Assembly: GCF_001042675.1 (NCBI RefSeq)
Contig: NZ_AP012333.1
Coordinates: 1,612,001 to 1,676,000, forward strand
From: Parascardovia denticolens DSM 10105 = JCM 12538
GTDB lineage: Bacteria > Actinomycetota > Actinomycetes > Actinomycetales > Bifidobacteriaceae
Reading direction: 5' to 3'
Length of the DNA stretch: 64,000 nucleotides
The notes beneath the pieces were generated by a model that worked only from the letters and a program-made list of their open reading frames with translations, was not told the DNA's origin and did no database searches. Position numbers and translations under genes: made by a program. Positions 4,980 to 62,092 of this stretch are shown here, piece by piece; within the stretch, counting starts at the first letter, position 1; each line of letters begins with the position of its first letter.

Positions 4980-5735
4980 CTAATACCGCATGTTTATCCC
5001 GTTTTTGCGGCCATGCCGGAGGATGATGGCGAAGAGCAGATAGCCAATAGCCAGATAAGCCAGACTCTGCCCGGCAACCGTCAACCATTGAGCCGCCGAG
5101 ACTCCATGCGTCCAGGCCCTCTCAATGAGTTCGAACCCGTATTGCAGGGGGAGAATCCGCCCAAACCAAACGACGGGCGTGGGCAAGACCTTCAGGGGGA
5201 CGACAACCCCGGAGACGAGCATGAGGATATAGGTGAAAAGGCTGGAGTAGGACTGGGTGCGGGTATAGACCACAGTCAAAGCCACAAAAATCAAGGTGAA
5301 ACCGAAAAGCCCAGCGAAGATAATCGGGCAGAGGCCAACGATAGCCCAGTTGAGGGCCATGGGGATGCGCAAGATCGCGAACAAGGCGACTATGAAAACC
5401 GCATCCAATATGATGGAAATCAAACTCCAAGTCAGAGTCTTCACAATGACCTGCTGGAAAAGGGAGGTCGGCTTGAGCATGAGTTGGGTGAAAGTCCCGT
5501 CCTGCTTATCCGTGGAGATGGAGATACTGGATTCGGTGATCATAGTCGATGAGGCGGTCCACAAGAAGTACCCCAGCCAAGCCGTCGGGTTCGACCGCGC
5601 GTCCGTGGACAAGGCGAACATGGCGATGAGGATCCCGGTCAGAAGCAGGTCGGAGACATAATTGCTCCAATACATCCTCAACTCGAAAAGATAGCGGCGG
5701 ATCTCCGCAAGCAAAAGAATACCGAATTTGCGCAT
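4980..5735 (-). CDS. ABC-2 type transporter permease
   Basis: 251 residues with about six hydrophobic segments (near residues 25-45, 52-70, 105-130, 138-165, 172-195 and 220-243). Between helices 2 and 3 it has STDKQDGTFTQLMLKP, typical of ABC-2 exporter permeases. The start overlaps the stop of the ATPase gene by one base, so the two are translationally coupled. The substrate cannot be read from sequence; drug, lipid or peptide export are the usual roles. Confidence 0.82.
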   Translation of the reverse strand: MRKFGILLLAEIRRYLFELRMYWSNYVSDLLLTGILIAMFALSTDARSNPTAWLGYFLWTASSTMITESSISISTDKQDGTFTQLMLKPTSLFQQVIVKTLTWSLISIILDAVFIVALFAILRIPMALNWAIVGLCPIIFAGLFGFTLIFVALTVVYTRTQSYSSLFTYILMLVSGVVVPLKVLPTPVVWFGRILPLQYGFELIERAWTHGVSAAQWLTVAGQSLAYLAIGYLLFAIILRHGRKNGINMRY

Positions 5736-6523
5736 CAGTCGTCCTCACCTTCTTCTCCTGCGCCAACCTGTTCATCGAAAAGGGCCAAGAGGATTTTCTC
5801 CAAATCGTAGGAGACCCCTTCCGCAGCTCCCATCTGCTGACTATGAGCATCAATGAAATCCTGATAGACCCCCTGCCACTGGATATGACCGTGGGAGATG
5901 AGGGTGATGTCGTCGGCCACCTCCTCAATCACTTCGGACTGGTGGGAAGAGATGATGATTCCCATCCCTCGCCGAGCAAGTTCCTTGATGGCGTTCAGGA
6001 AATCCCGCTTGGCGACCACGTCCAGGCCCAACGTCGGCTCATCCAAAATCAGGACCTGGGGACGCGGCAACATGGCCGTGACCAGAGCCAGTTTCTGCTG
6101 AGTCCCCCGGGACCAGTCCCCGACCGGCTTATCCATGTGCTCGGCCAAGGCTAAAGCGTCCATGAGAGACTGCGACCGCGCGAAAGCCTCTTTGCGGGAG
6201 AAGCCGTAGAGGGCGCCCTGGTAAGCGAGGTTGTTCCACCCAGTCAGGAACATATAAGTCAGAGAGGAATCCTCCAAGACGCACGACAAGTGGGTATAGA
6301 GGGAGCTTTTCCACTTCTCCAAAGGCTCGCCTTTGAAGTCGACGCTGCCGGATGTCGGTTGGATGAGGCCGCACATCATGCGCAAAGTCGTGCTTTTACC
6401 CGCCCCGTTCGGGCCAAGCAGGCCCATGATCCTTCCGGACCTGACCCCGATCGTGACATGGGAGACCGCGGATTTTCCTTTGAACTCTTTGCTGACATCC
6501 TGGGCCACAAGGATTTCGTCCAT
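5735..6523 (-). CDS. ABC transporter ATP-binding protein
   Basis: 262 residues. Walker A GPNGAGKST near residue 38, ABC signature variant WSRGTQQKLAL, Walker B LILDEPTLGLD and the switch His in ISSHQSEV are all present. The signature lacks the canonical LSGGQ but is in the tolerated SRG form. It partners the permease immediately downstream. The pair sits between rplQ and truA but is separated from rplQ by a terminator and a 500-bp unusual spacer, so it has its own transcription unit. Confidence 0.88.
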   Translation of the reverse strand: MDEILVAQDVSKEFKGKSAVSHVTIGVRSGRIMGLLGPNGAGKSTTLRMMCGLIQPTSGSVDFKGEPLEKWKSSLYTHLSCVLEDSSLTYMFLTGWNNLAYQGALYGFSRKEAFARSQSLMDALALAEHMDKPVGDWSRGTQQKLALVTAMLPRPQVLILDEPTLGLDVVAKRDFLNAIKELARRGMGIIISSHQSEVIEEVADDITLISHGHIQWQGVYQDFIDAHSQQMGAAEGVSYDLEKILLALFDEQVGAGEEGEDD

Positions 6524-6712
6524 TAGCTATGCCCCAATCCATATTGACCCATACCAATCTCATACTGACTCATCAATCGCGCCGATACTAGTTAATATAC
6601 CCCCGCAGATGGACAATGTTTCCCATTAATTGCATATTTTCTCTGAAGCCACCAGAAAGTCTGCATAAAATGCAAGTTGCCACCCTCAGTCACCTCATAT
6701 CCATATCTTGAC

Positions 6713-6789
6713 GTGTATACGAAACGAGGATAGAAAAAAGAAGCCCCTATTTCCAAGGCTCAAAATTTCTATCCTCGTTTCGTATACGC
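6713..6789. repeat. Long palindromic element, copy 1 (GTGTATACGAAACGAGG family)
   Basis: The left arm (6713-6736) begins GTGTATACGAAACGAGG. The right arm (6766-6789) is its reverse complement over 24 bp, with one G-U-compatible difference. The loop is 29 nt, A-rich at both ends. The same arm sequence with a loosely alignable loop recurs at 62014-62092. It lies 190 bp upstream of the ABC ATPase start and downstream of the rplQ terminator. There is no U-run after either arm, so it is not an ordinary terminator. Confidence 0.85.
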
Positions 6790-6927
6790 CAATCAAAAAT
6801 CACCCTCAAAAATCCCCTCCAAACCACCCAAACTCCACCAAAACACCCCAAAAACCACCTCCAACACCCAAAAATCCCACCACCCAAAAAATAATCCCTC
6901 TCCAACACATCCAAAAACACCTTCAAA
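6789..6927. other. 139-base stretch with no G on the plus strand
   Basis: Between the palindromic element and the rplQ terminator the plus strand is almost only C and A with a few T, and the first G is at 6928. The minus strand is correspondingly G/T-rich with repeated GGG tracts. I see no credible gene in it. Confidence 0.85.
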
Positions 6928-6954
6928 GCCAAACCAGCCCCAAAATGGATAAAG

Positions 6955-59763: not shown

Positions 59764-60726
59764 ATGCCCACAACAGTCCCCATCTTCTATGCGACCGATG
59801 AGAAATACGCCCCCTTCCTGTCCGTTTCCCTCACATCTCTGATCGCCAATACGGACCCGACGGCGGACACCACCTACCGCATTCTCATCGTCCACAGAGG
59901 CCTGAGCGAGGAATCCCAGCAGCTCTTCCGCCAAATGGCCACGGACCGCATCGCCATCGAGCTCTACCCCATGGAGTCCTACCTGATCGAGGCCATCAAT
60001 TCGGACCGGAACAAACTCAACGCCGACTACGTGACCATGACCATCTACTTCCGTCTCTTCCTGTCCGAGATGTTCCCTGGCCTTGATAAGGCCATCTACT
60101 TGGACGCGGACACCGTCATCAACGCCGACATCGCCCAGCTTTACCGGACCGATTTAGGGCATGACCTCATCGCCGCCGTGGCGGACAATTTCGTGGCCGC
60201 CAATCCCGAGACCGTCTATTACGCCGAAGAAGGCCTGGGCATCCCCTCCGACCAATACGTCAATTCGGGCATGCTGCTCATGAACCTCAAGGCCATGCGG
60301 GAGGGCCATTTCACCGAGCGGTTCGTGCAGCTGCTGAACAAGTACCACTTCGAATCCATCGCCCCCGACCAGGACTACTTGAACGTCATGTGCAACGGGC
60401 GGATCCATTACCTGGACCGGCGGTGGAACAACATGACCGGGGATGGAACTGAAGGGCCGGATCACCCTAAGATCATCCACTACAACCTCTTCGGCAAGCC
60501 TTGGCACTACCGCGACGCCCCTTTGGCGGACTACTTCTGGCGCTACGCCGAAGGGTCGGCCTACTATCCCAAGCTGATCGCCATCCTCAAGGAATTCTCC
60601 CAGCGCGACCCCTCTTTTGATGACAAGCGCAAGGCGACCATGATGACCGGGGCCGTTTCCATACCCAAAAACGAGGTGACTTTCAGGAAAGTGGCCGAAA
60701 GCGGGGTGGATCTGCGAATCCAGTGA
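59764..60726 (+). CDS. GT8 family glycosyltransferase (paralogue 1)
   Basis: 320 residues, AGAGGT 5 bp upstream of ATG. N-terminal VPIFYATDEKYAPFLSVSLT is the nucleotide-sugar-binding start of the GT-A fold. KAIYLDADTVINADIAQLY holds the metal-binding DXD. VNSGMLLMNLKAMRE and IIHYNLFGKPWHYRD are conserved GT8 blocks. GT8 retaining enzymes add Glc, Gal or similar sugars to polysaccharide, lipid or protein acceptors. No signal or membrane segment. Acceptor unknown. A close paralogue is convergent with it, ending only 49 bp away. Confidence 0.88.
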   Translation: MPTTVPIFYATDEKYAPFLSVSLTSLIANTDPTADTTYRILIVHRGLSEESQQLFRQMATDRIAIELYPMESYLIEAINSDRNKLNADYVTMTIYFRLFLSEMFPGLDKAIYLDADTVINADIAQLYRTDLGHDLIAAVADNFVAANPETVYYAEEGLGIPSDQYVNSGMLLMNLKAMREGHFTERFVQLLNKYHFESIAPDQDYLNVMCNGRIHYLDRRWNNMTGDGTEGPDHPKIIHYNLFGKPWHYRDAPLADYFWRYAEGSAYYPKLIAILKEFSQRDPSFDDKRKATMMTGAVSIPKNEVTFRKVAESGVDLRIQ

Positions 60727-60775: not shown

Positions 60776-61750
60776 TCAGCCAGCCAGACGAACCCTCACC
60801 CCTTCTTCCTCCAACTTGCGGAAGGTGACCTCATTCTTCGGCACCCGTAAAGCGCCGGCGATGAGCTTGGCCTTCTTACGCGCATCGGAATTGGCGTCGG
60901 TCTCAGTGAAATTCTCCACCCCCTCGACCAGCTGGGAGTAATAAGCGGACCCCTCGGCATACCGCCAGAAATAGTCGGCGTTGGTGGCATCCCTGTAATT
61001 CCAAGGCTTGCCGAAGAGGTTATAGTGGATGATCTTGGGATGCTCGGGCCCGGACGTCCCATCGGCCATCATGGTGTTCCACTCGTATCCCAGCATCAGG
61101 ATCCGCCCCCGGCAGATGACGTTCAGATAATCCTGGTCCGCGGCGATGGATTCCACATGGTAGGCGTTGAGCAGCTTGACGAAGTGGTCCACGAAGCCCG
61201 CCTCCCGCATGGCCTTGAGGTTCATGAGCAGGACTCCGGAATTGACGTATTCGGATGAAGGGATGCCCAAGGCGTTCAGGGTGTAATAGGAGGTCTCCTC
61301 CCCCGCGGCCACGAAGTTGTCGTTGACGGCGGCGAAGAAGTTGTCCCCCAGATCGATCCGATAGAGCTGCGCGATGTCCACATTGGTGACCGTGTCCGCG
61401 TCTAGGTAGATGGCCTTGTCGATGTCCGGGAACATCTCGGACAGGAAGAGACGGAAGTAGATGGTGAGGGTCTCGTAATCGGCCCTCAGCTTGTTGTGGT
61501 CCGAATTGATGGATTGAATCATGTAGTCCCGCATGGGGTACAGTTCCACGGCGACCTTGTCCGTGGACATGGCCTGGAAGATCTCCTGCGCCTGCTGACT
61601 GAGGTCTTTGTGGACGACGATGACCCGGTAGGAGGTATCGGACGTGGGGTCGGTGTTGGCAATGAGCGACGTCAGGGCCACGGATAGGTAAGGAGCGTAT
61701 TTCTCGTCAGTGGTGAAGAAGACTGGGACGATTTCACGGTTTTCACGCAT
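60776..61750 (-). CDS. GT8 family glycosyltransferase (paralogue 2)
   Basis: 324 residues. Same architecture as the neighbour: VPVFFTTDEKYAPYLSVALT, KAIYLDADTVTNVDIAQLYR with DXD, VNSGVLLMNLKAMREAG, IIHYNLFGKPWNYRD and the shared ending KNEVTFRK. The two align over the full length, with differences mostly outside the core, so they arose by duplication and inversion or by parallel acquisition. Its promoter gives an almost leaderless message. Confidence 0.88.
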   Translation of the reverse strand: MRENREIVPVFFTTDEKYAPYLSVALTSLIANTDPTSDTSYRVIVVHKDLSQQAQEIFQAMSTDKVAVELYPMRDYMIQSINSDHNKLRADYETLTIYFRLFLSEMFPDIDKAIYLDADTVTNVDIAQLYRIDLGDNFFAAVNDNFVAAGEETSYYTLNALGIPSSEYVNSGVLLMNLKAMREAGFVDHFVKLLNAYHVESIAADQDYLNVICRGRILMLGYEWNTMMADGTSGPEHPKIIHYNLFGKPWNYRDATNADYFWRYAEGSAYYSQLVEGVENFTETDANSDARKKAKLIAGALRVPKNEVTFRKLEEEGVRVRLAG

Positions 61751-61810: not shown

Positions 61811-61941
61811 CAGGTCTACATACAGGCTCATATGACAGACCCACATAACAGGCCAACATTGCAGGCTCACATGACAAGCCCCCACCTGACAGGCTCATAT
61901 TGCAAGTCCACATGATGGGCTCACATTGCATAGGCACACAG
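61811..61941. repeat. Degenerate 13-bp tandem array, about ten units
   Basis: Units begin at 61811, 61823, 61836, 61849, 61862, 61875, 61890, 61903, 61916 and 61929, nearly all 13 bp with a consensus CAGGCTCACATGA. CAGGCTCA is exact in three. No gene overlaps it. It lies 60 bp upstream of GT8 paralogue 2. Confidence 0.75.
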
Positions 61942-62013: not shown

Positions 62014-62092
62014 CGTGTATACGAAACGAGGTTACAGAAAACAGGCCGCCATTCCCAACCCCGATTTTTTGTAACCTCGTTTCGTATACACG
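62014..62092. repeat. Long palindromic element, copy 2 (GTGTATACGAAACGAGG family)
   Basis: A perfect 22-bp inverted repeat, with arms at 62014-62035 (CGTGTATACGAAACGAGG plus TTAC) and 62071-62092. Loop of 35 nt, A-rich then T-rich at the edges so pairing can extend with one or two mismatches. It shares GTGTATACGAAACGAGG and the following TA with copy 1. Confidence 0.88.

Follow-up and report, generated by a model that had tools for sequence, protein, structure and literature searches.

The 79-nt palindromes analysed here are fairly likely to be the non-coding part of a REPIN-like system in which a DUF559 nuclease is the partner, and this enzyme probably recognises these repeats and spreads or maintains them. 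The window (the whole 64,000-nt stretch of Parascardovia denticolens DSM 10105 = JCM 12538 that was analysed) contains two of the palindromes. As the partner gene is located beyond the window, it was invisible to a reading of the window alone, such as the preliminary description from which this analysis departs. The pairing of gene and palindromes is evident in the genome sequences compared, and we infer that the enzyme acts on the palindromes.

Copy 1 occupies positions 6712–6790 of the window (+ strand), between rplQ and an ABC-transporter ATPase gene. Pairing analysis placed its 5' arm at 6715–6736 (+) and its 3' arm, a perfect complement of the former, at 6766–6787 (−); the variable centre between them (6737–6765), as read from the sequence and from identity counts, contains CCCCTATTTCCAAGG. 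Both neighbours lie outside the system: the ATPase gene (5735–6523, −) is an open reading frame assigned by eye, and rplQ, encoding ribosomal protein L17 (7027–7575, −), is an open reading frame recognised by eye and by the adjoining rpoA and rpsK. Copy 2 occupies positions 62014–62092 (+) in a gap separating divergently read genes, with arms at 62014–62041 (+) and 62065–62092 (−) according to the pairing analysis. Against a covariance model built from the nine copies of this genome (R1), copy 1 (C1:1618712–1618790) scored 83.8 bits (E 1.1e-16) and copy 2 (C1:1674014–1674092) 99.7 bits, each copy being itself part of the model.

Both palindromes of the preliminary description are thus present, far beyond chance: folding of copies 1 and 2 compared with shuffles gave z values of −10.0 to −12.8 on both strands, and the arm motif said to be shared by the two copies, the 15-mer GTATACGAAACGAGG, occurred exactly four times in the window as two inverted pairs. 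With up to three mismatches it had 7 matches, vs. 0.73 ± 0.83 expected. The compensated difference between the copies (GGATA/TATCC versus GGTTA/TAACC) and the likeness of their loops (ATTTCCAA and ATTCCCAA) were as described. The arm lengths had to be revised: the 24 bp given for copy 1 consist of a perfect 22 bp plus an outer U-G wobble, and the arms of copy 2, given as 22 bp, are longer, reaching 28 nt with 96% complementarity. Several other features were seen around the two copies. Copy 1 is followed, at window positions 6790–6950, by a C/A-rich tract of low complexity (aaaaatcccctccaaaccaccc...) that is missing in the shorter orthologous gap of genome G001. Degenerate repeated motifs (caggctcayattgcaggctcacatgaca...) lie just 5' of copy 2 at 61812–61930, as judged by eye, and two similar glycosyltransferase-like genes beside copy 2, at 59764–60726 (+) and 60776–61750 (−), meet at their 3' ends, also by eye.

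The preliminary description had proposed a two-copy family, but the P. denticolens genome (G000; 1.89 Mb, one contig) holds nine palindromes with arms of the window type, each exactly 79 nt long, starting on C1 at 352053, 610887, 612299, 786474, 1434047, 1458251, 1602723, 1618712 (copy 1) and 1674014 (copy 2). A search of this genome for GTATACGAAACGAGG with at most two mismatches returned 19 matches, 18 of which made up nine inverted pairs with a constant span of 73 nt, or 79 nt including the outer three bases; the nineteenth was a lone two-mismatch site, and the reversed-pattern control gave five matches. At no more than one mismatch, GTATACGAAACGAGG was absent from two other genomes of the genus. 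The nine copies aligned without gaps; 95.2% of cells were paired, and both partners had changed in 6 of 28 pairs, values reached by none of 500 shuffles; cells changed on both sides numbered 8, which 10 of 500 shuffles reached.

Model R1 had matches in 12 of 189 Bifidobacteriaceae genomes. The relatives that were read measured 79–82 nt, with arms differing by lineage and a related centre around CCGCCATTTTCCAA, short hairpins excepted. These short hairpins, L029, L030 and L031 (in G057, G097 and G046), are 44–54 nt long, two of them with ACGAAACGGGGTTCCTTCTC in their arms, and look like another repeat family; being of another kind, they were excluded from the element family together with the minus-strand duplicate L033. 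A second covariance model (R2), built from 20 training sequences and on one length class of element, at E ≤ 0.05 gave matches in 44 of 189 Bifidobacteriaceae genomes and 6 of 16 genera; 9 of these 44 genomes had supplied training sequences, and at this threshold some single weak hits may be due to chance. Several weak hits fell off the 79–84 nt size, ranging over 50–87 nt. Scoring covered at most 24 candidates per genome, and several genomes reached this number. Across the R2 training set, 25 of 28 pairs had changed on both sides, vs. 10–18 with slid partners. Together with the 6 of 28 pairs in P. denticolens, this upholds the selection for pairing that had been proposed from the window copies, and the P. 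denticolens copies with their Bifidobacteriaceae relatives bear out a REP/MITE-like dispersed element homologous over its whole unit. The two outcomes named beforehand as telling against such an element, only two copies or copies with no conserved pairing, were not observed: there are nine copies plus relatives, and pairing is conserved.

In Scardovia wiggsiae (G002), a pattern search found 21 complete pairs and one lone arm; pairs of this arm type numbered one in G001 and none in P. denticolens. Eighteen S. wiggsiae copies measured 81–83 nt. Two copies 3 kb apart (G002:C1:920549 and 923696) flank a large gene of cell-surface type, which by eye was not indicative of a partner gene.

The arms are far better kept than the rest of the element. 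In five genomes (9, 18, 8, 10 and 8 copies), mean pairwise identity from copy to copy was 79–97% in the arms, 51–72% in the centre and 26–31% in the flanks. Since the arms are kept at different chromosomal places while the centre changes, they appear to be selected or repeatedly renewed, rather than merely to be drifted old copies. The nature of the pairing bears on the reading of the palindromes as a structured RNA or a bidirectional terminator acting on transcripts, for which the hairpin, very stable on either strand, and the conserved pairing speak, and which we nevertheless regard as extremely improbable. Among 1378 arm pairs, GT and AC departures from Watson-Crick pairing were about equally rare (26 and 33; other 52). 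An RNA helix should favour G-U, and the missing preference suggests that the pairing is a property of DNA, either double-stranded or in hairpin form; the conserved pairing in these sequences thus points to DNA, not RNA. The elements had no Rfam match, the sole match in the window being a tRNA, and the arms are kept in primary sequence within a species. On the GT/AC balance and the Rfam result, a structured RNA was disfavoured. No U-tract directly follows either window copy, in agreement with the preliminary description. Among 70 elements, 35 lay between tandem, 15 between divergent and 8 between convergent neighbours, as judged by simple gene calling on loci with 1.3–1.7 kb flanks, the other 12 having no two called neighbours; 3 of the 70 overlapped a called gene. 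A terminator was rejected on this spread of orientations, copies between divergent genes included. Of the readings offered at the outset, REP/MITE-like dispersal stood, and a structured RNA, like a plain MITE, was disfavoured.

The link to DUF559 came from copy pairs lying 1.0–1.4 kb apart in three lineages (G000 610887/612299, G103 2032917/2033962 and G107 371202/372257), each interval containing one plausible gene and no second. The encoded proteins are homologous (36–60% identical over aligned columns, ~300–356 residues) and carry a C-terminal DUF559 domain (PF04480), which scored 26.4 bits in G000 and 23.0 bits in G107 against a cut-off of 20.6, and 20.5 bits, just under it, in G103. In S. 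wiggsiae, G109 and G026 (L130, L128 and L168), a DUF559 gene is adjoined on one side by a palindrome with the genome's dispersed arms. A search with the three proteins found DUF559 relatives in 106 of 189 Bifidobacteriaceae genomes, vs. element matches by R2 in 44.

A blind palindrome finder, whose upper limit of 150 nt cut or missed longer units, was run on 50 Bifidobacteriaceae DUF559 loci, 30 returned by the search and 20 chosen by hand, and thus not a random sample. At its strict setting, a palindrome of 50–150 nt lay no more than 700 nt from 36 of the 50 genes; 13 of these had one on either side, and just three palindromes were found elsewhere in the loci; on the 64-kb window this setting returned just copies 1 and 2, and the lax setting three palindromes. 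The lax finder placed a palindrome within 600 nt of 44 of the 50 genes, with 9 palindromes away from genes in 135 kb, and found none near any of 16 control Y1-transposase loci. Even so, 6 of the 50 Bifidobacteriaceae loci and 3 of 29 DUF559 loci outside the family had no near palindrome. Left and right arms (agreement of at least 0.75 over 16 nt between the two palindromes of one locus) agreed at 14 of 21 two-sided Bifidobacteriaceae loci, compared to 2.4% of cross-locus pairs; they were unlike at the other 7, and at 2 of 15 two-sided loci outside the family. Palindrome lengths at DUF559 loci spanned the finder's whole range of 50–150 nt, most being 72–93 or 104–150 nt. At two loci (L163, G155 C12 ~76000; L166, G163 C21 ~78000), the units flanking the DUF559 genes are compound, ~146–148 nt long, and contain a pair of small hairpins, GGTTCACGATTT...AAATCGTGAACC, in inverted arrangement like a REP doublet.

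The compared sequences make plain that the arms differ from one DUF559 gene to another and tend to be more alike the closer the proteins are in sequence. P. denticolens has three DUF559 genes (four matches, two overlapping within one gene) and three arm families. The first gene (611144–612121) is flanked by window-type arms. The second (1267192–1268241) has GTGGCACTCAACGCAAGTAG arms on both sides, and these recur at two further places, 102298 and 1760453. The third (289067–289963) has one GTGTACTAAGTCAAAG palindrome ~200 nt past its 3' end and a second one on the 5' side at a distance of ~1.7 kb, both found at the lax setting and neither at the strict one; this type also occurs at 1770311 and 446809. 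Over 44 loci, protein identity correlated with arm identity (r 0.44) and with similarity in palindrome length (r 0.26), and in neither case did any of 2000 permutations give as high a value. The correlation with the arms is confounded by relatedness, and arm identity clearly rises only above 50% protein identity. An exception was G155, where the arms at the best-scoring DUF559 gene are unlike those of the one dispersed G155 element that was read.

The arrangement extends beyond the family. A query with 24 Bifidobacteriaceae proteins found DUF559 relatives in 85 of 118 sampled genomes of the class, P. denticolens included. The best-scoring match was taken from each of 29 genomes outside Bifidobacteriaceae, and at the strict setting 23 of these 29 loci had at least one palindrome near the gene, mostly 46–74 nt long; the lax finder placed a palindrome within 600 nt of 26 of the 29 genes and found 15 away from genes in 70 kb. 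Left and right arms agreed at 13 of 15 two-sided loci, vs. 10% of cross-locus pairs. In five genomes of another actinomycete family, exact 54–56-nt palindromes of the form GATCATGGAGAA...TTCTCCATGATC numbered 44, 14, 9, 8 and 0, the reversed pattern had no match in the same five genomes, and pairs of this kind flank DUF559 genes at G229 C33 and C76 and at G301 C82. The outside loci and their dispersed copies indicate that the arrangement is no peculiarity of bifidobacteria.

A phage or plasmid origin was rejected: tblastn with the P. denticolens protein found no match among 50,697 phage records and, among 72,556 plasmid records, two that each covered 55% of the query. Given this near-absence, the protein looks like a chromosomal resident. 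RAYTs, the enzymes associated with REPINs, are likewise chromosomal residents.

To our knowledge, DUF559 proteins are widespread in actinobacteria, little studied and without a known function. An AlphaFold2 model of the protein from Bifidobacterium sp. ESL0784 (mean pLDDT 75.7) suggests two domains, an N-terminal half resembling AbiEi and a C-terminal DUF559 domain resembling the nuclease fold of Vsr and I-Bth0305I. Model residues ~172–276 matched the catalytic domain of I-Bth0305I (3r3p) with a Z of 10.2 (94 residues, 2.5 Å) and Vsr (1cw0) with a Z of 7.9. Residues 29–169 matched residues 57–195 of the AbiEi antitoxin (6y8q) with a Z of 7.8, not clearly over its DNA-binding domain; this Z and that for Vsr fall in the tool's middling range. 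Foldseek with the whole model gave no match at E ≤ 0.001, and a profile search returned 3hrl, an 'endonuclease-like protein' (E 0.00063), followed weakly by 3r3p (E 0.086). The acidic residues of the nuclease motif (E, D, E) were invariant in 24 of 24 proteins and, judging from the fold and from general knowledge, would be catalytic. DUF559 itself was matched at E ≤ 0.01 by 12 of the 24 aligned proteins, and alignment identified the remaining 12 as relatives.

The Vsr-like fold could also suit a role in defence or chromosome maintenance, with the palindromes serving as the nuclease's self-marks, decoys or repair sites. PADLOC, run on four proteins, detected a weak similarity to methyl-directed restriction enzymes (E 0.0094–0.038) that would fit such a role, but nothing better than E 0.002. 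Moreover, the intervals between flanking palindromes in G000, G103 and G107 hold no second plausible gene, and there would be no obvious reason for gene-flanking pairs to share their arms. We therefore hold this explanation to be very unlikely.

The chief rival to a REPIN-like system is an operator, or regulon, in which an AbiEi-like protein regulates its own gene through the flanking palindromes as operators, with the dispersed copies making up a regulon or serving as decoys. According to PMC7319586, the promoters of AbiEi antitoxins contain inverted repeats to which the antitoxin binds. The N-terminal half of the model matches AbiEi (PADLOC gave AbiEi a weak E of 0.002 for one of the four proteins), gene-flanking copies could be operators, and 15 of the 58 loci with two called neighbours lie between divergent genes. 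However, 8 of the 58 lie between convergent genes, copies stand on both sides of the gene, copy 1 and most copies of the S. wiggsiae type are not kept across the genus, the palindrome would seem longer than an operator needs, and the nuclease residues are conserved. On balance an operator appears rather unlikely, and a REPIN-like system with a DUF559 partner remains the preferred reading.

Related genomes differ in the copies that they have. Copy 1 is missing in G001, where rplQ and the ABC gene are adjacent with just a terminator-like hairpin between them; in S. wiggsiae, a truA-like gene (by eye) follows rplQ. At one bifidobacterial site (G103 group), six genomes carry full-length elements with a common left junction, no more than a semblance of the element's left end can be made out in five others, and G108 has lost the element plus 8 and 13 flanking bases, that is, by deletion. 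At this one multi-species site examined, there was no clean pre-insertion site. In the six orthologous elements 80% of cells were paired and both partners had changed in 7 of 25 pairs, a number that 3 of 500 shuffles attained, indicating that arms co-evolve in place between species. In P. denticolens, the two copies flanking the gene have centres that are 91% identical, compared to 52–78% identity between these and the centres of dispersed copies; other pairs of centres averaged 67%, with the best also at 91%. Flanking centres in the same orientation were 88% identical at L125 and 79% at L139, and just 54% (71% reversed) at L133.

Such variation in copy number, in elements that are small, non-coding, terminally inverted and intergenic, would also be expected of MITEs, here deleted derivatives of ordinary DDE-type insertion sequences with the DUF559 gene as merely a frequent neighbour. 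Target-site duplication was absent in 67 elements: no offset tried gave more than a single shared 4- or 5-mer, and none gave one of 6–9 nt. Pattern searches of G000, G002 and G001 did not find an insertion sequence with element arms at its ends; in S. wiggsiae and P. denticolens, all arm matches but one per search lie in complete short pairs, so that no insertion-sequence ends are among them. DUF559 loci are also strongly enriched for palindromes. We consider a MITE origin very improbable.

For the preferred REPIN-like system, the following steps can be proposed. The DUF559 protein would recognise the arms in the form of a duplex, a cruciform or a single-stranded DNA hairpin and, judging from its fold and residues, may cut or nick there. 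Repair or strand transfer, as dispersal and turnover suggest, would occasionally copy the element to another intergenic site. The arms would be kept because they must fit the resident protein while the centre drifts, and eroded copies suggest that copies decay once their protein is lost. Copies 1 and 2 of the window would then be two of the dispersed copies. In a broader form, Vsr-like DUF559 nucleases may mobilise miniature palindromes throughout the class in a homing-like manner, independently of HUH (RAYT) or DDE transposases, with gene and arms evolving as a matched pair; we see the chances of this generalisation as evenly balanced.

If the proposal is correct, a large family of actinobacterial proteins would gain a role, the REPIN mode of existence, in which non-coding palindromes are maintained by a resident chromosomal enzyme, would also occur with an unrelated nuclease, and intergenic palindromes in bifidobacteria and other actinomycetes would be explained. 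As many DUF559 genes carry a likely DNA target alongside, specificity is directly testable, and genomes provide dozens of protein-target pairs. No report of a link between DUF559 and repeats was found in the open-access literature, outside which most subscription papers lie.

Among known systems, CGTC-tagged REPs are said in PMC3733652 to be dispersed palindromes with no dedicated transposase, mainly alpha-proteobacterial, and REPs in general to measure 20–40 bp; the paper does not mention actinobacteria, Bifidobacterium or DUF559. The elements described here are likewise dispersed palindromes, but actinobacterial and longer than 20–40 bp. They resemble MITEs in being short, non-coding and intergenic with inverted ends, and differ in that target duplication was not found and no insertion sequence with the same ends was seen in P. 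denticolens or S. wiggsiae. The N-terminal half of the DUF559 protein resembles AbiEi of type IV toxin-antitoxin systems in fold; unlike AbiEi, it is fused to a nuclease domain, its repeats are dispersed and, in G000, G103 and G107, the palindromes enclose no second plausible gene. The Vsr-like homing endonuclease I-Bth0305I is the best structural match to the C-terminal domain, but it is intron-borne (PDB 'Mobile intron protein'), whereas the DUF559 gene stands by itself between its palindromes, and it is non-coding units that are dispersed.

The closest likeness is to REPINs, hairpin-forming REP doublets that go with RAYT (TnpA-REP) transposases and that two papers (PMC3116915, PMC3733652) describe as dispersed extragenic elements with conserved inverted ends, constant spacing and a less conserved spacer, with a resident gene flanked by repeats and several types per genome. 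A RAYT partner was looked for here without success: RAYT genes (Y1_Tnp, PF01797) were not found in the element-rich genomes G000, G001, G002, G026, G098, G103, G109, G155 and G163, and PF01797 was present in 11 of 189 genomes, including G003, G031 and G076, which have few and weaker element matches. Unlike in REPIN/RAYT systems, the partner is a PD-(D/E)XK DUF559 protein unrelated to RAYT, the arms pair over ~26–28 bp, and by eye and from flank base counts there is no common GTAG tag at the element ends. Like REPINs, the palindromes are dispersed and extragenic, with 9 copies in P. denticolens and 21 in S. wiggsiae, have a characteristic length (79 and 81–83 nt, respectively) with conserved inverted ends and a freer spacer, and accompany a resident gene that is flanked by repeats, several types occurring within one genome.
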